From Syntrophomonadaceae bacterium (GTDB lineage: Bacteria > Bacillota > Dethiobacteria > DTU022 > UBA8154): DNA of 41,009 nucleotides. The notes under the pieces are model-generated. The model made no database searches. It was not told the origin of the DNA and saw nothing but the letters and a program-made list of their open reading frames with translations. Below are positions 11,410-37,349 of the stretch, piece by piece. The first letter of the stretch is position 1, and every line of letters starts with the position of its first letter. Location: contig PWTK01000113.1 in the NCBI GenBank assembly GCA_003563895.1, positions 1-41,009 on the forward strand, in the 5' to 3' direction. The position numbers and the translations under genes were made by a program.

Positions 11410-11489
11410 TGTGGAAAACGGGAAAAAACCGCATTCCCCCTTTAGTTATCCACACTTTCTGTGGATAACTAAGGGTTTTTTGTGGGTAA
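11410..11489. promoter_or_regulatory. DnaA-box cluster upstream of dnaA (origin, upstream part)
   Basis: Four boxes: TGTGGAAAA (11410-11418, one mismatch), TTATCCACA (11446-11454, perfect), TGTGGATAA (11460-11468, perfect, opposite strand) and TGTGGGTAA (11481-11489, one mismatch). The two perfect boxes form an 11-bp inverted repeat with a 5-base spacer (11444-11470). The cluster lies between the promoter and the Shine-Dalgarno site of dnaA, so it probably serves both the origin and dnaA autoregulation. The rest of the 378-bp rpmH-dnaA gap is AT-rich and holds no gene. Confidence 0.85.
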
Positions 11490-11512
11490 TTATTTGGAGG
11501 TGTAACGGCGAA

Positions 11513-12940
11513 ATGGATTACCCGAAAACTGAACATCGCCTAACTGAAATATGGCGTTCGGTGCTTTCGGAGCTGGAAAAGATTTTGAGCAAGCCGAGTT
11601 TTGAAACCTGGCTGAAAGCAACCAAACCGCTGGACCTGCGTGAAAACACGCTGATCGTGGAAGTGCCCAACGAATTCACCAAGGAGTGGCTGGAAAGCCA
11701 TTACCGTAAAAACATTTCTCACACTATTCAAAAGGTTAGCAATTGCAATTATAATTTTCATTTTGTGACCCCTCAAAAAATTGATCCCGCAAGAACCAAA
11801 CCAAATTCATCAGGAAGTGGAAACAGGGGGGAAGAAAAAAACACCTCCCCTGCTTCAGCGGAGGGAAAAGCGCAGGGCGAAAAAAACAGGAAAAGCGACC
11901 TGTCCGGGCTCTGCAACTGGTTGAATCCCAAGTATACCTTCGACAGTTTCGTTATCGGCGGCAGTAACCGCTTGGCCCATGCCGCTTCCCTGGCGGTGGC
12001 AGAGGCTCCTTCAAAGGCCTACAACCCGCTCTTTATTTATGGAGGCGTGGGATTGGGCAAAACACACCTCATGCACGCCATCGGTCATTTCGTGATCTCC
12101 AACAACACCAGCAACAACACCGCTTACCTTTCCACAGAAAAATTCACAAATCAGTTCATCAACGCCATCCGGGACAACAGGACCCTGGAATTCCGGAACA
12201 AATACCGCAACATTGATGTCCTCTTGATCGATGATATTCAATTTCTCGCAGGCAAGGAACAAACCCAGGAGGAATTTTTCCACACATTTAATGCCCTGCA
12301 CGAAAACAACAAACAGATCGTTATTTCCAGCGATCGACCTCCCAAGGAGATACCCACGCTGGAGGATCGGCTGCGCTCCCGTTTCGAATGGGGATTAATT
12401 ACCGACATTCACCCTCCAAACCTGGAAACCCGCATCGCCATCCTGCGCAAAAAGAGCTCCCAGGATGGAACCTATATTCCTGACGATGTCCTGCTCTACA
12501 TCGCACAGAAAGTTGAAAAGAACATTCGAGAACTGGAAGGTGCCCTGATTCGCATTATGGCCTACGCTTCCCTGGAGGACAAGCTTATCACCCTTCAACT
12601 CGCCCAGGAAGCATTAAAAGACTTTTTCTCCGAAAGGCAAAAACCCTCCATCAACCCGGAACAGATCATCTCCGCCACCTCCTCCTATTTCAAAATAACC
12701 CCGGAAGATATCCGATCCAAAAAAAGGGCCTCCAGTATTTCACTCCCCCGCCAGATTGCCATGTACCTGGTCCGGGAAATGACCGCTTACTCTCTTCCGC
12801 GCATCGGCCAGGAATTCGGGGGGAAAGATCACACCACGGTGATTCACGCCCACCGAAAAATATCCGTCCAAAACCAAACCAACGGAGACTTGCAGCAGCA
12901 CATTAAAGGAATTAAAGAGCTGCTCAAGAACCACCTGTGA
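11513..12940 (+). CDS. dnaA: Chromosomal replication initiator DnaA
   Basis: AAA+ initiator that binds DnaA boxes and melts the origin. The 475-aa protein has domain I (1-80, WLKATKPL, helicase-loader contacts), a variable polar linker (about 90-130), an AAA+ domain with [10 protein letters not shown] (177-186) and LLIDDIQF (237-244), and C-terminal domain IV with [14 protein letters not shown] for box recognition. The ATG at 11513 has GGAGGTG 9 bases upstream; an in-frame extension to 11411 crosses the DnaA boxes and is not coding. Flanked on both sides by DnaA boxes. Confidence 0.98.
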
Positions 12941-13357
12941 CCCGTGCTGCCGGCAGCGTTATTTTCTATCAGCCTTATCTCCGCTGTCACGGAATACTCG
13001 AACATTGCTGTAAGCTGTGCATAACCATGTTAGCTAGATGTGGACGAAAAATCTTTTTTTGTGGATAAATCCATTTTTTTATCTTCCGCAAGAACAACTG
13101 TGGAAAGGGTGGATGGGATCCCGTATTTACACACAATTTTATACAGATCTTCTGTGCCCTCCAGAAGCGCCCTTCCATCACTTATCCACCGATTCACATG
13201 GCCTGGTACTGTTGACTTCTGTTTTTTTATATATATATATATATCTAGAAAATCTAATGATATCGTGTGGACTTTTTTATTTTTTATCCTTTAATTATTT
13301 GCAACCGCCGGTATTATCCAAATGATCCAAACCTACCTTAATTCGGGAGTGATGAGC
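12941..13357. other. oriC, dnaA-dnaN intergenic region
   Basis: A 417-bp non-coding region with DnaA boxes TGTGCATAA (13016-13024, one mismatch), TGTGGATAA (13060-13068, perfect), TGTGGAAAG (13099-13107, two mismatches), TTATCCACC (13182-13190, one mismatch) and TTATCCAAA (13314-13322, one mismatch). An AT-only tract (13222-13244, mostly TA steps) and the AT-rich DNA to about 13300 are the likely unwinding element. Gene orientation switches here from leftward to rightward, which supports its being the active origin. Together with the upstream cluster it makes a bipartite origin. Confidence 0.88.
13212..13241 (+). promoter_or_regulatory. Candidate dnaN promoter within oriC
   Basis: TTGACT at 13212-13217 is followed by a run of alternating TA that provides TATATA at 16 or 18 bases. 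It would drive dnaN-recF and read through the unwinding region. The -10 is not unique because of the repeat. Confidence 0.45.
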
Positions 13358-19996: not shown

Positions 19997-22438
19997 ATGT
20001 ATGAAAACGAAAACGTCACCATTTTGCCCCTGCATGAAGAAGTGAAAAATTCCTTTATGGACTACGCCATGAGCGTCATCGTCAGCCGTGCGCTGCCCGA
20101 CGTGCGCGACGGATTGAAGCCCGTGCACCGGCGCATTCTTTACGCCATGCAGGAGCTGGGCACCAGTCCGGACAAACCCCATAAAAAATCGGCCCGCATT
20201 GTGGGGGAAGTGCTGGGGAAGTATCACCCCCACGGTGACCAGGCCGTCTACGAGGCCATGGTTCGGCTGGCGCAGGACTTTACCAGCCGCTATCCGCTGG
20301 TGGACGGCCACGGCAACTTCGGCTCCATGGACGGGGACTCGGCCGCGGCCATGCGCTACACCGAGGCCAGGCTCTCCCCGCTGGCCATGGAGATGCTGCG
20401 GGACCTGGAAAAAGAAACGGTGGACTGGCGCCTCAACTTTGATGAGACGCTGGAGGAACCGGTGGTGCTCCCCTCGCGCCTCCCCAACCTGCTGATCAAC
20501 GGGTCGGCAGGGATCGCCGTGGGGATGGCCACCAACATCCCGCCCCACAATCTCTCCGAAACCATCGATGCCATCTGCGCGCTCATCGACGATCCCGACC
20601 TGACCGATGAGAGACTGCTGGACTACATGAAGGGTCCTGATTTTCCTACCGGCGGGATCATTTTGGGGCAGAAGGGAATCCGGGATGCGTTTTTGACGGG
20701 CCGGGGGACCGTTCAGGTGCGGGGCAAAACCAGTATCGAAAGGGAAGCGGGCAAGGACCGCCTGCTCATCACGGAGATCCCCTACCAGCAGAACAAGGCC
20801 CGCCTGATCGAAAAAATCGCCGAGCTGGTGCGGGAGCGAAAAATCGACGGGATTTCCGATCTGCGGGACGAATCCGACCGCAGCGGGGTGCGCATCGTGA
20901 TTGAAGTCAAAAAAAATGTCAACCCCCATGTGATCCTGAACCAGCTGTATAAATATACCCCGCTCCAGCAGAGCTTCGGCATCATCATGCTTTCCCTGGT
21001 AGACGGATACCCCCGGGTGCTCGGCTTGAAAAACATCCTTTTTGCCTACCTGGACCATCAAAAAGAGGTGGTCACTCGGCGTTCCCAGTTTCTCCTGCGC
21101 CGGGCGCGCGACCGGGCCCATATCGTGGAAGGGCTGCGCATCGCGCTGGACCACCTGGATGAGGTTATCGCGCTCATCCGGGGGTCCCGCGACGCCGATG
21201 AAGCCAGGCGGGGCCTGGTGGAGCAGTTTCATCTCAGCGAGAAGCAGGCCCAGGCCATCCTGGATATGCGTCTGCAGCGCCTGACGGCCCTGGAAAGGGA
21301 AAAACTGGAAGAAGAGTACCGTTCCCTGATGGAAGAGATCGCGTACCTGGAAGCCCTCCTGGCTGACGATAAGCTGATCCTGCGCGAGATAAGACGTGAG
21401 ATGGGGGAGATAAAGGCCAGGTATGGCGATGAACGCCTCACCCAGATCGTCCCCGATGAAGAAGAAATAGAGCTGGAAGATTTGATCCTGGAGGAGCAGG
21501 TGGTGGTGACCATCACCCACCAGGGCTACATCAAGCGGATCCCCCTTTCCACCTACCGCCAGCAGCACCGCGGGGGGAGGGGCGTGATGGCTCATTCCAT
21601 CCGGGAAAAGGACTTTATCAAGCAGCTCTTCGTCTCCTCCACCCGCGAAAAGCTGCTCTGTTTCAGCAACTTAGGCCGGGCTTACCCGCTGAGGGTTTAT
21701 AAAATCCCCGAGGCCGGCCGCCAGGCGCGGGGCACGGCCATTATCAACTTGCTCCCGCTGCAGAGCGGCGAGTATATCACCGCCGTTTTCCCGCTGGGGA
21801 GCTACGAAGCAGACGACCAGCTGGTGCTGGCTACCAAAAGCGGCTTCGTGAAAAAGACCCGGCTCAAGGAATACATGAATGCCCGCCGCTCGGGGGTCAT
21901 CGCCATCGACCTGGTCGAAGGCGATGAACTCATTTCGGTCAAGAGCGTGGGGAGCGAGGAGAACGATCGGACGGAGGAACCCTCGGTCATGCTGGTCACC
22001 CGGCAGGGCTGGATGATTCGCTTTTCCGTCTCGCAGCTGCGCTTTCTGGGACGGACGGCCCGCGGGGTGCGCGGCATTTCCCTCTACCCGGAAGACCGGG
22101 TGGTCGGGATGGTTCTGGCTTCGGGACAGAGAAAGGATCTCCTGCTGGTTTCGGAAAAGGGTTACGGCAAAAGAACCCGGTTGAGAGAATTTCGGGCTCA
22201 AAACAGGGGGGGCAAGGGGCTTATGGCTTACCGCCATAACGAAGATACCGGTGAGTTGGCGGGTTTTTGCCTGGTGGAACAAAGGGACGAGTTCATCATC
22301 ATCACCGCCCAAGGCCTGGTGATCCGGGAAACCGCCGCCCAGGTTCCCGTCCAGGGCCGCTATGCCCGGGGAGTAAAGCTGATCAGGCTGTCTCCGGATG
22401 ACAAGGCGGTCAACATTGCGGCGGTAACGGGGGAGTAA
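19997..22438 (+). CDS. gyrA: DNA gyrase subunit A
   Basis: DNA breakage-reunion subunit of gyrase. The 813-aa protein has the winged-helix/tower core with catalytic Tyr121 ([11 protein letters not shown]) and a C-terminal beta-pinwheel containing QHRGGRG (about 521), the GyrA box, and a second QNRGGKG (about 733). This marks gyrase rather than topoisomerase IV. Odd point: in the quinolone-binding loop the sequence is [12 protein letters not shown], with Gln82 and Glu86 where E. coli has Ser83 and Asp87. The ATG has GGAGGAGG 13 bases upstream, a long spacing. It has its own promoter, being cut off from gyrB by a terminator and the permease gene. Confidence 0.97.
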
Positions 22439-22565
22439 CATAAAAGGGGCGGCCAAAAGGTGAACGAGGGCTCGTGTCAGCCACAGCCCTTCGATGGGGA
22501 AGTCGGCTGTGATCTTCAGGCAAAGCGATGCCTCAACAAAACGCTGATACCGGAGGGCGAGAAGT

Positions 22566-23963
22566 TTGGGTTTTTTTGGCAGAGAGACCGTCCCTTTTTT
22601 TTCTGTTTTGCTGCTGCTGACCATATTCACCGTATTCGTTTTACAGCTTATTTTTCAAGCACCGCCAAAGGATTTTTCCGATGCGCCGCAGAGTGGCGAT
22701 GTGGCCGTTTTGGGGGGAGGGACCACCGCCATTTTAACCGCCCTGGAGGCTTCCGGGCGCGGCGCAGAAGTCTACCTCTTTCCCATGGGCCAGGAGCTCG
22801 GGGGAGATGCCGCGCAGCTGGTGCAGGAAGGCCTGGCTGCGGCCGGAACTTCCCCCCAGGAGGAACGGGGCCTGGAGATGACCCCGCAGATGCTGCGGGC
22901 CCGGATGGAAGCACGAGGTCAGGGCTTGAACGTACCCGCCCTTTTGAATGCCTTCGCCGAGATGGCGCCCAGGATGCCGGACGAAGCCGCCCGGGCGGGT
23001 GGAATCGAGTTCGATCAGATCCCCTTCCCGGAGGAACACCCCTACCTGCACCTCCCGTCCTCTCCCCGCGAAAGCGCCCGCGCTTTCAAGGAATATATGC
23101 TGGAAACGCTGCAGCAGAGCCCGGTCTTTCTGCGGGAAAAAGCGGTGGAAGGAATCCTTCTTTCTCCCCGCGGGGAGGTGGAGGCCCTGTTGTTAAAGGA
23201 CGAGGGCGGTGAGGAAAAAACCCTCTACGTTCGGGCTGTCGTTCTGGCTGCCGGCGGATACAGCGCGGCGCTGGACCACTGGCACGATTTTGCCACTGGC
23301 GAAGAATCCGTCCCTTTGCGGCCGGAGCAGACAGGTCGGGGCCTGCTTCTGGCCGAAGCCCTGGGTGCTGAGGTCATCCAGGAGGGATATTACAGCCGCC
23401 GGCCCATCGTTTGTCCCCTGAACGGGAATGAAGCGGCAGGCCTCCTGGAAAAGTGTGCTGCCTTTTTCCCCGGCTGGCTCCGCCAAACGCAGGCGCACGT
23501 GTTTCATGAAGAAGGTGCTTTTCAGCCGCTCACCGATCTGGCAGACGAGGAAGAACTCCTGCGCTTGTTGGATTCCAGCGGGGGAGAAGCCTTCCTGGTG
23601 GGGGGCGCGTCGATGCAGGCCGCCCAGCCGGGCCCGGAGGGGTTGTGGCGGGAATACCGCAGTCCTGAGCGCCTGCTGGAGGGGTTGGGGGGCCGCGAAG
23701 CAGGCGGGCTGCCCGCCGACCTGGAAGGCCCTTATTTTGCGGCCTCCCTGCGGGTAGGGGTTGATTACACGATGGGGGGGCTGCCCGTGACCCCCCGGGG
23801 AGAGGTACAAGCAGGGGACGACATTCTGGAAGGGCTGTATGCTGCAGGGGAGATCGCAGGCGGCCTCCACGGGGCGGCCAGGCTTCCCGGGACGCCGTTG
23901 AGCGAAGCGCTCTTCTTTGCCCGGGTGGTGGGGGAAGAAGCGTCCGCCTATGCCCACCGCTAA
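22566..23963 (+). CDS. Membrane-anchored FAD-binding protein, divergent fumarate reductase flavoprotein family
   Basis: The 465-aa protein has one N-terminal membrane segment (about 10-31). It continues as a flavoprotein of the FrdA/SdhA/flavocytochrome-c type: a dinucleotide-binding strand VAVLGGGTTAILTAL (46-60), an internal RAVVLAAGGYSAAL, TGRGLLLAEALGAEV, and a C-terminal YTMGGLPVTPRGEVQ ... LYAAGEIAGGLHGAARLPG. Several key positions depart from the family. The GxGxxG turn is GGGTTA, the acidic residue that normally ends the second strand and binds FAD ribose is missing (LFP), and the His of H-x-MGG is Asp. FAD binding or catalysis may be lost or changed. TTG start with GGAGGG 8 bases upstream. 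It follows gyrA after 127 bases; partner and substrate unknown. Confidence 0.75.
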   Translation: MGFFGRETVPFFSVLLLLTIFTVFVLQLIFQAPPKDFSDAPQSGDVAVLGGGTTAILTALEASGRGAEVYLFPMGQELGGDAAQLVQEGLAAAGTSPQEERGLEMTPQMLRARMEARGQGLNVPALLNAFAEMAPRMPDEAARAGGIEFDQIPFPEEHPYLHLPSSPRESARAFKEYMLETLQQSPVFLREKAVEGILLSPRGEVEALLLKDEGGEEKTLYVRAVVLAAGGYSAALDHWHDFATGEESVPLRPEQTGRGLLLAEALGAEVIQEGYYSRRPIVCPLNGNEAAGLLEKCAAFFPGWLRQTQAHVFHEEGAFQPLTDLADEEELLRLLDSSGGEAFLVGGASMQAAQPGPEGLWREYRSPERLLEGLGGREAGGLPADLEGPYFAASLRVGVDYTMGGLPVTPRGEVQAGDDILEGLYAAGEIAGGLHGAARLPGTPLSEALFFARVVGEEASAYAHR

Positions 23964-24447: not shown

Positions 24448-25944
24448 TTGCCAAAGAGAAAAGTCGGCATAACCGATACCACCCTGCGAGACGCCCACCA
24501 GTCCTTGATGGCAACCCGCATGAAAACGGAGGACATGCTCCCCATTGCAGACACCATCGATCGCATCGGCTACCATTCGGTGGAGATGTGGGGCGGTGCC
24601 ACCTTTGATGCCTGCATGCGCTACCTGGACGAGGACCCGTGGGAGCGCCTGGCAAAGCTGCGGGAAGTGCTCCCCCAATCCAGGCTGCAGATGCTTTTGC
24701 GGGGGCAGAACCTGGTCGGTTACCACCATTACCCGGATGATGTGGTGCAGGCCTTTATCAAGCTGGCGGTGAAAAACGGGATTGATATCATACGCATCTT
24801 CGATGCGTTGAACGATGTGCGCAACATGGAACTGGCCATGCGAACGGCGAATGAGGCCGGAGCCCACGTGCAGGCGGCCATCAGCTATACCCTGAGCCCC
24901 ATGCACAACATCGACCACTTTGTAAAACTCGCCGGAGAGCTGGAAGCCAGGGGGGCGGAGTCTCTCTGCATCAAGGATATGGCGGGGCTGCTGTCCCCCT
25001 ACGACGCGTATGACCTGGTAACAAAATTGAAGGAGAACATCCACATCCCCGTCCAGCTCCATTCTCACTTCACCAGCGGCATGGCGGCCATGTCGTACCT
25101 GAAGGGGATCGAAGCCGGATGCGATGTGGTCGATACGGCCATCTCGGCCCTTTCCCTCGGTTCCTCCCAGCCGGCCACCGACAGCATGGTGGCCGCGCTG
25201 AAAGGCACCCCCTACGATACGGAGCTGGACCTGGAGCTGATCGCCGAGGTGGGCGAATACTTCAAGGGCATTCGCTGCAATTACGACATCCCCGTGGACT
25301 TGGTGCTGGGGGTCGATGCCTCGGTGCTGAGCTACCAGATCCCCGGGGGCATGATCTCCAATTTGGCCTCTCAACTGGCCAGTCAGAACTCCTCCCATCT
25401 GCTGGGGGAGGTTTTGAAAGAGGTGCCCCGCGTGCGGGAAGAGCTCGGCTACCCTCCCCTGGTAACACCTTCCAGCCAGATCGTGGGCACGCAGGCCGTG
25501 GTCAACGTGATCACCGGCGAACGCTACAAGGTGGTGCTCAAAGAGGTCAGGAATTACCTGAAAGGCCTCTACGGACAACCCCCCGGCGAGGTGGACCCCG
25601 ACCTGCTGAAAAAGGTGCTGAAGGACGAGGAGCCTTACCGGGGGCGTCCGGCGGACCTGTTGGAGCCCGAGCTGGAGAGGGCGCGGGATGAGGTGCGCTA
25701 CTACCTGGAAAAAGAAGAGGACCTGCTCTCATACCTCCTCTTCCCCCAGGTGGCGCTGCCCTTTTTTAAGCGGCGCAAGAATGAAATGCCGCCCGTGGAG
25801 GCCGACAATTCCTGCACCCTCTCCGCCGCACCGGAAAAGAATACCTCCAGCGAGGGGCCCAACCTGGAAGGGATTTATACGGTGGACGATAAGCTGCTGC
25901 ACCGTTATGACGGGGAGGCCGGCGCGGTTTACCCCAGCCCTTAA
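24448..25944 (+). CDS. Carboxyltransferase subunit, OadA/PycB/transcarboxylase 5S type, without biotin domain
   Basis: TIM-barrel carboxyltransferase of the pyruvate/oxaloacetate family. The metal site and active residues are visible: GITDTTLRDAHQS (Asp10), the carboxylated lysine Lys176 in CIKDMAG, and LHSHFTSG (His205/His207). The PYC/OAD conserved C-terminal domain (NLASQL ... EVLKEVPRVREELGYPPLVTPSSQIVGTQAV) follows. At 498 aa it stops before the biotinyl domain, and no MKM biotin site is seen. Biotin must then be on another protein, as in PycB partnered with a separate carrier, in 5S transcarboxylase or in split OadA. No biotin carboxylase, BCCP or sodium-pump subunit is adjacent, so the exact reaction is open. 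TTG start with AGGAGG 7 bases before it; own promoter at 24257. Confidence 0.88.
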   Translation: MPKRKVGITDTTLRDAHQSLMATRMKTEDMLPIADTIDRIGYHSVEMWGGATFDACMRYLDEDPWERLAKLREVLPQSRLQMLLRGQNLVGYHHYPDDVVQAFIKLAVKNGIDIIRIFDALNDVRNMELAMRTANEAGAHVQAAISYTLSPMHNIDHFVKLAGELEARGAESLCIKDMAGLLSPYDAYDLVTKLKENIHIPVQLHSHFTSGMAAMSYLKGIEAGCDVVDTAISALSLGSSQPATDSMVAALKGTPYDTELDLELIAEVGEYFKGIRCNYDIPVDLVLGVDASVLSYQIPGGMISNLASQLASQNSSHLLGEVLKEVPRVREELGYPPLVTPSSQIVGTQAVVNVITGERYKVVLKEVRNYLKGLYGQPPGEVDPDLLKKVLKDEEPYRGRPADLLEPELERARDEVRYYLEKEEDLLSYLLFPQVALPFFKRRKNEMPPVEADNSCTLSAAPEKNTSSEGPNLEGIYTVDDKLLHRYDGEAGAVYPSP

Positions 25945-35183: not shown

Positions 35184-35222
35184 ACAAGGATAAGGAAGGA
35201 ATAGGAAGGAGGTGTGAAGCCT

Positions 35223-35257
35223 GGTTCCTGCAGTACATTTCAAAGGAGCCAGGAACT
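35223..35257 (+). promoter_or_regulatory. Hairpin around the ribosome site of the EF-G-like gene
   Basis: GTTCCTG (35224-35230) pairs with CAGGAAC (35250-35256), leaving the GGAG Shine-Dalgarno (35245-35248) in the loop and ending 2 bases before the ATG. It could modulate translation; a chance 7-bp match is possible. Confidence 0.35.
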
Positions 35258-35258
35258 T

Positions 35259-37349
35259 ATGAAAGGGTATACCACCAAACAGATACGCAATGTTGCCCTG
35301 ATTTCGCACGGAGGTGCAGGCAAAACCTCCCTGGCAGAAGCCCTGCTTTACACGTCGGGGGTCACCAACCGCCTGGGTCGCGTGGAGGCGGGGAACACCA
35401 TCACCGACTTTGATCCCGATGAGGTGAAGCGGCAGGTGACCATCTCCACGGCCCTGGCGCCCGTGGAATGGAAGGGCGTCAAGCTCAACCTGCTGGACAC
35501 CCCGGGGTTTTTCGATTTTATCGGCGAAGTGCACGGTGCCCTGCGTGTGGCGGACAGCGCCCTGGTAACCGTTTGCGGCGTTTCCGGGGTGGAAGTCGGC
35601 ACGGAAATGGTTTGGAAGTTTGCCGACCAGTATGAGCTGCCCCGGGTGGTCTTCATCAACAAGCTGAACCGGGAAAACGCCGACTTTGACGGGACCCTGG
35701 AACAGCTGCGCAGCCAGTTCGGGCTGCAGGTGTTCCCCCTGCAGTTCCCCATCGGCCTGCAGGAGGATTTCCGGGGCGTGGTGGACCTGGTCCGCATGAA
35801 GGCGCTGGTCTTCGAAGAAGACGGGCTTTCCATGAGCGAAGAGGACATCCCGGACGACCTCCTGGAAAAAGCGGAAGAAATGCGCGAAAAAATCATCGAA
35901 GCGGCCGCCGAAGCCGACGATGACCTGATGGAAAAATACCTGGAAGACGAGGAAGAACTGAGCGAAGAAGAGATCAACAGCGCCCTGCGCCGGGGCACCC
36001 TGGAAGGAACCATTGTCCCCGTGCTCTGCGGCGCCGCCACCAAAAACTACGGCATCCAGCCGCTGCTGGACCTCTGTGCCAGCGCCCTCCCCTCTCCGGC
36101 CGACCGTCCCCCCGTCCGGGGCACGCGTCCCGGCAGCGACGAAGAGGTGGTCCGCAACCCGGATCCTGCCGAGCCCTTCTCCGCCCTGGTCTTTAAAACC
36201 CTGACCGACCCCTATGTGGGGCGGGTGAATTTCATCCGTGTCTTTTCGGGCACGCTGAAAAGCGATGCGGGCCTGTACAACGTTACCAAGGACAAGATGG
36301 AGCGCATCGGCGGCCTTTTCTTCATGCGCGGCAAAAACCAGGAAGCGGCCGGTGAGGTGGCGGCGGGCGATCTCGCGGCGCTTTCCAAGCTGTCGGTTAC
36401 CGCCACCGGCGACACCCTCTGCGACAAAAGCGATCCCGTGGTCTTCCTGCCCGTGGAATTTCCCAGGCCGGTCATCTCCTTCGCCGTGGAACCCAAATCC
36501 AAGGGTGACGAAGAGAAGGTCAGCGCGGGCCTTTCCCGTTTCCTGGATGAAGATCCCACCTTCCGCGTGGAGAAAAACACCGAAACCCGGGAGCTCATCA
36601 TTTCCGGCATGGGCGACATGCACCTGGACGTGATGGTGGAGCGTCTCTCGCAGAAGTTCGGCGTCGACGTGAACCTGAAAACCCCCAAGGTTCCTTACCG
36701 GGAGACCATCAGCAAAAGCGCCCGCAGGGAGAACAAGTACAAAAAGCAGAGCGGCGGGCGCGGCCAGTACGGCCACGTCTTCCTGGAGCTCAGCCCCCTC
36801 GAGAAGGGCGAAGGATTTGTTTTCGAGGATAAGATCGTGGGCGGGGTCGTCCCCAAGCAGTATATCCCGGCCGTGGAAAAAGGGGTAATCGAGGCCATGC
36901 AGGAAGGCATCCTGGCCGGTTACCCGGTGGTGGACGTCAAAGTGACCCTTTACGACGGCTCTTACCACACGGTGGACTCTTCGGAGATGGCCTTCAAAAT
37001 CGCCGGTTCTGTGGCCTTCCGGGGCGCCCTGGAGCAGGCCGTTCCTGTTCTTTTGGAGCCCATCATGGACGTGGAGGTTACGGTGCCCGAGCAGTTCATG
37101 GGCGATATCATGGGCGACCTCAACAGCCGCCGCGGCCGCATCCAGGGAATGACGCCCGGGGAAGGCCTCCAGGTGATAAAGGCCCAGGTGCCGCTGGCGG
37201 AAATGTTCACGTACGCCATCGACCTGCGCTCCATGACGCAGGGCAGGGGCTACTTCACCATGCAGTTTTCCCATTACGAGGAAGTCCCGCACCATGAAAG
37301 CGAAAAGATCATAGCCGCCGTCAGGGAGCGAAAGGAAAAAGACGAGTGA
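35259..37349 (+). CDS. Elongation factor G-like GTPase (EF-G2 / FusA2 family) with altered G motifs
   Basis: Five-domain translational GTPase of EF-G length (696 aa). P-loop SHGGAGKTS (16-24) is complete. Two catalytic or specificity motifs differ from canonical EF-G: G3 is DTPGF (80-84) instead of DTPGH, so the GTPase His is Phe, and G4 is NKLN (134-137) instead of NKxD. Switch I reads RQVTIST rather than RGITI. Domain II (VFKTLTDPYVGRVNFIRVFSG), domain III (GMGDMHLDVMVERL), domain IV (SGGRGQYGHVFLELSP, PVVDVKVTLYDGSYHTVDSSEMAF) and domain V are present. This fits the EF-G-like paralogues whose role in elongation or stress is unsettled; it is not near rpsL/rpsG as true fusA is. ATG chosen for GGAG at 10 bases; a GTG at 35214 is possible. 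Probably read through from leuB. Confidence 0.9.
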   Translation: MKGYTTKQIRNVALISHGGAGKTSLAEALLYTSGVTNRLGRVEAGNTITDFDPDEVKRQVTISTALAPVEWKGVKLNLLDTPGFFDFIGEVHGALRVADSALVTVCGVSGVEVGTEMVWKFADQYELPRVVFINKLNRENADFDGTLEQLRSQFGLQVFPLQFPIGLQEDFRGVVDLVRMKALVFEEDGLSMSEEDIPDDLLEKAEEMREKIIEAAAEADDDLMEKYLEDEEELSEEEINSALRRGTLEGTIVPVLCGAATKNYGIQPLLDLCASALPSPADRPPVRGTRPGSDEEVVRNPDPAEPFSALVFKTLTDPYVGRVNFIRVFSGTLKSDAGLYNVTKDKMERIGGLFFMRGKNQEAAGEVAAGDLAALSKLSVTATGDTLCDKSDPVVFLPVEFPRPVISFAVEPKSKGDEEKVSAGLSRFLDEDPTFRVEKNTETRELIISGMGDMHLDVMVERLSQKFGVDVNLKTPKVPYRETISKSARRENKYKKQSGGRGQYGHVFLELSPLEKGEGFVFEDKIVGGVVPKQYIPAVEKGVIEAMQEGILAGYPVVDVKVTLYDGSYHTVDSSEMAFKIAGSVAFRGALEQAVPVLLEPIMDVEVTVPEQFMGDIMGDLNSRRGRIQGMTPGEGLQVIKAQVPLAEMFTYAIDLRSMTQGRGYFTMQFSHYEEVPHHESEKIIAAVRERKEKDE

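Follow-up and report, generated by a model that had tools for sequence, protein, structure and literature searches.

A gyrA-linked, membrane-tethered candidate pseudo-flavoenzyme recurring across the class Dethiobacteria

Introduction

Contig PWTK01000113.1 of a Syntrophomonadaceae bacterium (assembly GCA_003563895.1; 41,009 nucleotides, hereafter the window) carries, directly behind gyrA, a gene for a protein with the fold of a flavoenzyme and several substitutions where such enzymes bind their cofactor and substrate. An initial annotation of this gene, here called gene X, described a membrane-anchored relative of fumarate reductase and flavocytochrome c that had lost the standard FAD and catalytic motifs, and proposed that it was either a new flavoenzyme subgroup or a non-enzymatic descendant. 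Is gene X a gene decaying in one strain, a divergent enzyme, or a protein that kept a flavin fold for a purpose other than redox chemistry?

Results and Discussion

Gene X and its surroundings

The features of the locus are listed in Table 1. The Pfam family FAD_binding_2 (PF00890) covers residues 45-445 of the gene X protein (99.4 bits against a cut-off of 20.4), and 25 of 25 members of our alignment A3 match it at E 0.01. The best PDB sequence match of the window protein is Shewanella flavocytochrome c3 (1ksu, E 7e-25). The family signatures listed in the initial annotation (LAAGGYSA, YTMGG and YAAGEIAGGLHG) were all found in the translation, as were the altered glycine turn, the missing ribose-binding acid and the replaced active-site histidine. 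We also agree with its remark that no haem or iron-sulfur partner lies nearby: using Pfam, no haem, Fe-S or FMN_bind domain was detected in the gene X protein or in the products of the neighbouring gyrA and PYC_OADA-type genes. No RNA families were found within the window.

Table 1. Coordinates of gene X, its motifs and other features in the window.
Feature	Position	Strand	Remarks
Gene X, membrane-tethered FAD_binding_2-fold protein	22566..23963	+	465 aa, TTG start
Probable ribosome binding site GGAGGG	22552..22557	+	About 8 bases upstream of gene X start
gyrA	19997..22438	+	Directly upstream of gene X in 53/53 genomes carrying gene X
PYC_OADA/HMGL-type carboxylase subunit gene (oadA/pycB-like)	24448..25944	+	
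N-terminal transmembrane helix, residues 9-30	22590..22655	+	Hydrophobic, without lipobox
GGGTTA, residues 50-55	22713..22730	+	GxGxxA instead of GxGxxG
Pro73, beta2 end	22782..22784	+	Replaces the ribose-binding Glu; Glu in 26/26 controls
LAAGG, residues 227-231	23244..23258	+	LADGG in most relatives, ATGG-like in controls
Asp400	23763..23765	+	At the position of His504 (Shewanella flavocytochrome c3 numbering)
GLYAAGEI loop, residues 423-430	23832..23855	+	Flavin-head side, within the family's most conserved region
Arg439	23880..23882	+	Arg544 column; only the window has Arg there among 52 family members
Replication-origin-like region	11410..13322		
dnaA open reading frame	11411..12940		DnaA-box-like sites on both sides
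Elongation-factor-G-type gene	35214..37349		711 aa

The gene order in this part of the window is dnaA-dnaN-recF-dciA-gyrB-gyrA. DnaA-box-like sites with at most one mismatch number 18 in the window compared with 4.05 expected, and none of 100 shuffles reached 18. Since DnaA boxes fall within the first 80 bases of the dnaA open reading frame, its start may be annotated too early.

Distribution in Dethiobacteria

Among the 97 Dethiobacteria genomes examined, 53 harbored an intact gene X orthologue directly downstream of gyrA and on the same strand, of which 49 were found with matches past E 1e-45 and four more divergent ones were met at the gyrA locus. These are metagenome-assembled genomes, some of them incomplete, and the start codons of gene X and its orthologues were picked by script. 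In the family of the window (f1), the orthologue was present in 20 of 23 genomes, a match far beyond chance, and in all 11 genomes with a completeness of 90% or more and a contamination of 5% or less. At the order level, 34 of 71 genomes scored 281 bits or more, and the next three matches (genomes G052, G060 and G048) scored 154 bits or less; the two of these three that were checked (L051 and L052) both lie away from gyrA. The matches to gene X also include Dethiobacter records, D. alkaliphilus among them.

The gap between gyrA and gene X is at most 66 bp in 52 of the 53 genomes and 127 bp in the window, and an oadA-like gene lies downstream of gene X in all 37 genomes where this side was readable. 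When the gyrA locus was read in 24 further genomes without a gene X match, gyrA and the oadA-like gene were adjacent in 20, and the other four had gene X; absence was counted only for those 20 genomes, in which gyrA and its downstream flank were both read. A homologue of the elongation-factor-G-type gene immediately follows the oadA-like one at several order-level loci (for example L041, L047, L054 and L199), and in L161 and L163 one lies close to gene X.

No same-locus relative from outside the class was seen among 80 loci, with L115 left out of class assignment. In 20 of these loci gyrA or oadA was nearby, namely 16 at 35-43% identity plus L076, L079, L093 (which correspond to class genomes G079, G083 and G078) and L115. 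None of the five phylum-level matches inspected (L170-L174) was near gyrA, and plasmids yielded only distant flavocytochrome-c-type matches, none covering 80% of the query.

Losses at the active site, the clamp and the ADP end

The 53 gene X proteins fell on one side of a branch with an SH-aLRT of 100 in quick IQ-TREE runs without bootstrap, separated from 26 ordinary flavocytochrome-c/urocanate-reductase-type controls that were hand-picked from normal-looking matches and are not a random sample. As L201 is cut by a contig end, C-terminal counts are given out of 52. In the numbering of Shewanella flavocytochrome c3, His504 was kept in none of 52 family members (25/26 controls), Asn163 in none of 53 (25/26 controls) and Arg544 only in the window (1/52, against 25/26 controls), while the Arg402 column held arginine in three scattered members (3/53, against 23/26 controls). 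The window has D, D and R at the Arg402, His504 and Arg544 columns and does not carry the fumarate/urocanate reductase set. In the available text of PMC7921117, the equivalent UrdA residues Arg411, His520 and Arg560 are described as binding the substrate carboxylate, and the variants R411A and R560A (Arg402 and Arg544 equivalents) as inactive. The His504 column is aspartate in most of the window's family, A, E, C, S, V or K in the rest of the order, and A, L or S in the rest of the class. In the lipoprotein-type branch at the order level (e.g., L041-L047), a cysteine follows the next, invariant tyrosine (YCLGG), and the window's family mostly has YTLGG.

The clamp is also reduced. Counted from the ATGG-like strand up to the His504 column, this segment has 125-169 residues in the family (52 members) and 184-202 in the 26 controls, with no overlap. 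About 30-45 residues are gone, and a full-length clamp domain was not observed in the gene X family. We used segment length instead of the clamp motif TxxxYN..D.F because the latter, found in 15 of 26 controls and in none of the 53 family members, was a poor marker and was dropped. The ATGG-like letters themselves are replaced by a new LADGG in 45 of 53 members.

Losses at the ADP end of the FAD site were patchier. The beta2-end acid that binds the FAD ribose was located by counting a set number of residues from the turn's first glycine; in the MAFFT alignment, the Glu156 column is out of register for the window's family. This acid was present in 26 of 26 controls and gone in 46 of 53 family members; the seven that kept it are all from other families of the class (0/20 in the window's family, 0/14 in the rest of the order, 7/19 in the rest of the class). 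GxGxxG was intact in 19 of 53 members, none of them from the window's family, and either GxGxxG or GxGxxA in 25. The second glycine was kept in 1/20, 7/14 and 17/19 members of the same three groups; on the tree, parsimony requires at least seven changes at this position. The GxGxxA turn occurs in FAD proteins and by itself is a mild change; within its family the window alone has it, most of its relatives being further gone (GxTxxA). The claim that standard FAD motifs were lost was thus correct as to the loss, and too broad in that the turn of the window reaches only GxGxxA and some class relatives retain GxGxxG. With GxGxxA and Pro73, the window still departs from the FAD/NAD Rossmann fingerprint xhxhGxGxxG...hxhE(D), as written in the accessible part of PMC4427408.

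At the far end of this series, the class-level member L180 has lost the AGE motif of the flavin-head loop as well as the turn's first glycine, and its gene is intact. L180 and L182, another class-level member, are about 25 residues shorter than their near relatives and have a disrupted ATGG-like strand; both reading frames are open. The catalytic and clamp losses are family-wide whereas those at the ADP end are patchy, so the catalytic set and the clamp were lost before the family split, and the ADP site eroded later and repeatedly.

The flavin-head loop, the fold and the anchor

The best-conserved part of the protein lies on the flavin-head side. The AGE glutamate was kept in 50 of 52 members. 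Variability within the window's family is lowest in the GLYAAGE loop (421-450), at a mean of 0.52 bits; LADGG (0.58) and YTxGG (0.72) come next, and region 101-222 and the clamp reach 1.8-1.9 bits. Tyr401 is invariant in all 20 sequences. As the flavin-head loop is the most conserved part, the reading of a lost FAD site may rather mean that the ADP end was lost. The AlphaFold models of the window protein and of L180, the most eroded member, had mean pLDDT values of 82.9 and 82.0, respectively, and Foldseek matched both to flavocytochrome c3 and UrdA.

An N-terminal anchor was predicted in all 53 proteins. In 39, from the window's family and other families of the class, it is a membrane helix lacking a lipobox, and in 14 (all 14 other order-level members) it is a lipoprotein signal. 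Net positive residues precede the anchor nearly always, which would place the fold on the extracytoplasmic side, a topology read from the protein sequences. The type of anchor varies across the family and the location does not. The hydrophobic helix proposed for the window protein is there, although it is no peculiarity of the group: lipoprotein-like signals or membrane helices occur in several ordinary relatives outside the clade (e.g., L170, L171, L172, L077, L078 and L101), so the anchor itself is not new.

For 16 close pairs, the dN/dS of gene X ranged from 0.14 to 0.34, above that of gyrA (0.04 to 0.19) in every pair and far below 1, indicating that gene X is maintained by purifying selection.

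Comparison with known systems

The closest structural relatives are two reductases. The window protein shares with Shewanella flavocytochrome c3 (1qjd, 1d4c) the fold over residues 37-463 (VIA Z of about 33, 24% identity), the GLYxAGE..GG.HG loop and YTMGG. It differs in having no haem domain, in the replacement of His504, Arg402 and the residues at the ADP end of FAD, in its shorter clamp and in its membrane tether. UrdA (6t85, 6t86), also extracytoplasmic, has the same two-domain fold and is the top PDB match of the most eroded member. Unlike UrdA, gene X has no FMN_bind domain, and the equivalents of Arg411, His520 and Arg560, as these are given in the available text of PMC7921117, are lost as a set, with the window retaining the third. 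TIGR01813 (flavocytochrome c subfamily) was the best-scoring NCBIfam model for the window protein, which stayed below its cut-off (99.9 vs 285.45 bits). L155, L043, L036 and L182 were also far below this cut-off, and controls L048 and L171 were above it (426 and 516). The exported fumarate-reductase-like PF00890 proteins covered in the accessible portion of PMC8238504 are likewise secreted or lipidated, though they go with FMN-binding domains or cytochromes, none of which occurs in or beside gene X. Our literature searches found no paper on the gene X group and no flavoenzyme-derived pseudoenzyme in this superfamily. Gene X is best read as a new, tethered pseudoenzyme branch of the flavocytochrome-c/UrdA group within the PF00890 fold family.

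A probable binding protein and its alternatives

Taken together, the shortened clamp, the missing substrate residues, the damaged ADP end and the conserved flavin-head loop are best read as those of a binding protein. We consider it probable, from sequence and predicted structure, that gene X encodes an ancient pseudo-flavoenzyme located outside the cytoplasm, whose function is binding and not redox catalysis. A flavin domain of the urocanate-reductase/flavocytochrome-c type, tethered to the outer side of the cytoplasmic membrane, would have been placed behind gyrA and then inherited in the class. The residues for holding and protonating a carboxylate substrate disappeared together with part of the clamp, followed, repeatedly according to parsimony, by portions of the FAD site's ADP-binding half. 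The fold and the flavin-head/ribityl loop GLYAAGEIxGGLHG would persist as a pocket for a small ligand, possibly a flavin without ADP, in a putative adaptor or sensor with a surface for contacting a partner. That gene X sits so close behind gyrA suggests that the protein is made together with gyrase in growing cells, presumably by co-transcription.

Many members keep the turn and nearly all retain the AGE glutamate, which makes a divergent flavoenzyme subgroup, still active outside the cytoplasm, the strongest alternative. It would act on a new substrate by means of new catalytic residues, such as Asp400-Tyr401 in the window's family, and we regard it as possible and clearly less likely. Such an enzyme might hold FAD, with the same limited probability, by backbone contacts and the conserved AGE loop even though the ADP end is altered, and the counts for GxGxxG and the AGE glutamate indicate that FAD may still bind in many members. 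Other PF00890 enzymes, e.g., 3-ketosteroid dehydrogenases, function without the fumarate-reductase residues, so the loss of these residues alone is no proof of a dead enzyme. The invariant Tyr401 and the Foldseek matches, the best of which are FAD enzymes, also fit activity, and exported fumarate-reductase-like enzymes are common according to the accessible portion of PMC8238504. However, no polar candidate in the His504 column is common to the subgroups, L180 remains intact and folds in silico without the first glycine and the AGE motif, and the gene X protein has no haem, FMN_bind or other electron-donor domain. A possible link with ApbE (flavin transfer) was uninformative, as ApbE was found in 87 of 97 class genomes.

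A role as a sporulation-linked envelope protein seems improbable. In the 73 genomes with a readable gyrA locus, some of them incomplete, Spo0A or SpoIVA was found in 48 of the 53 that carry gene X and in 5 of the 20 that lack it (Fisher p 1e-7 before any correction for kinship). This strong raw co-occurrence does not survive correction for kinship: of six independent contrasts on the gyrA tree, two agree and four show no difference (p 0.5), and the flagellar/motility control FliG behaves alike (raw p 4e-4; about 2/6 contrasts). Moreover, gene X occurs without either marker in the window's genome and four others, and the markers without gene X in five. The window's genome (G000, 79.6% complete), unlike most of the family, has no Spo0A or SpoIVA match and may be asporogenous.

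A gyrA-linked enzyme whose activity is confined to early-branching members is very unlikely. The window would be one of these: it alone has arginine in the Arg544 column (Arg439), it alone in its family has GxGxxA, and on the tree it sits beside the other 19 members of that family. However, it too lacks His504, Arg402, Asn163 and the ribose acid, and its clamp is as short as the others'. Ordinary pseudogene decay in the window's strain, which the missing motifs could suggest and which the initial annotation named among its refuting cases, is the least credible explanation and was rejected, as intact orthologues with like losses were found in 52 other genomes and dN/dS is well under 1.

Implications

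The two options of the initial annotation, a distinct subgroup or a non-enzymatic descendant beside gyrA, are supported by our homologue search, in which the same losses and the same gyrA-linked neighbourhood recurred across Dethiobacteria. More speculatively, gene X could be a class-wide pseudoenzyme, co-expressed with gyrase, whose cleft turned into a receptor for another ligand, so that replicating cells would read a signal from outside. It is conceivable, at a similarly low level of confidence, that this ligand is a flavin without ADP or an envelope metabolite. To our knowledge, flavoenzyme-derived pseudoenzymes have been little described in bacteria. For this group, the annotation "FAD-dependent oxidoreductase" may be wrong. 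One clade preserves many stages in the loss of a cofactor site, from GxGxxG with the acid to neither glycine turn nor AGE motif, and its 53 open, selected genes at one locus form a natural series on the role of a flavin fold after redox chemistry.
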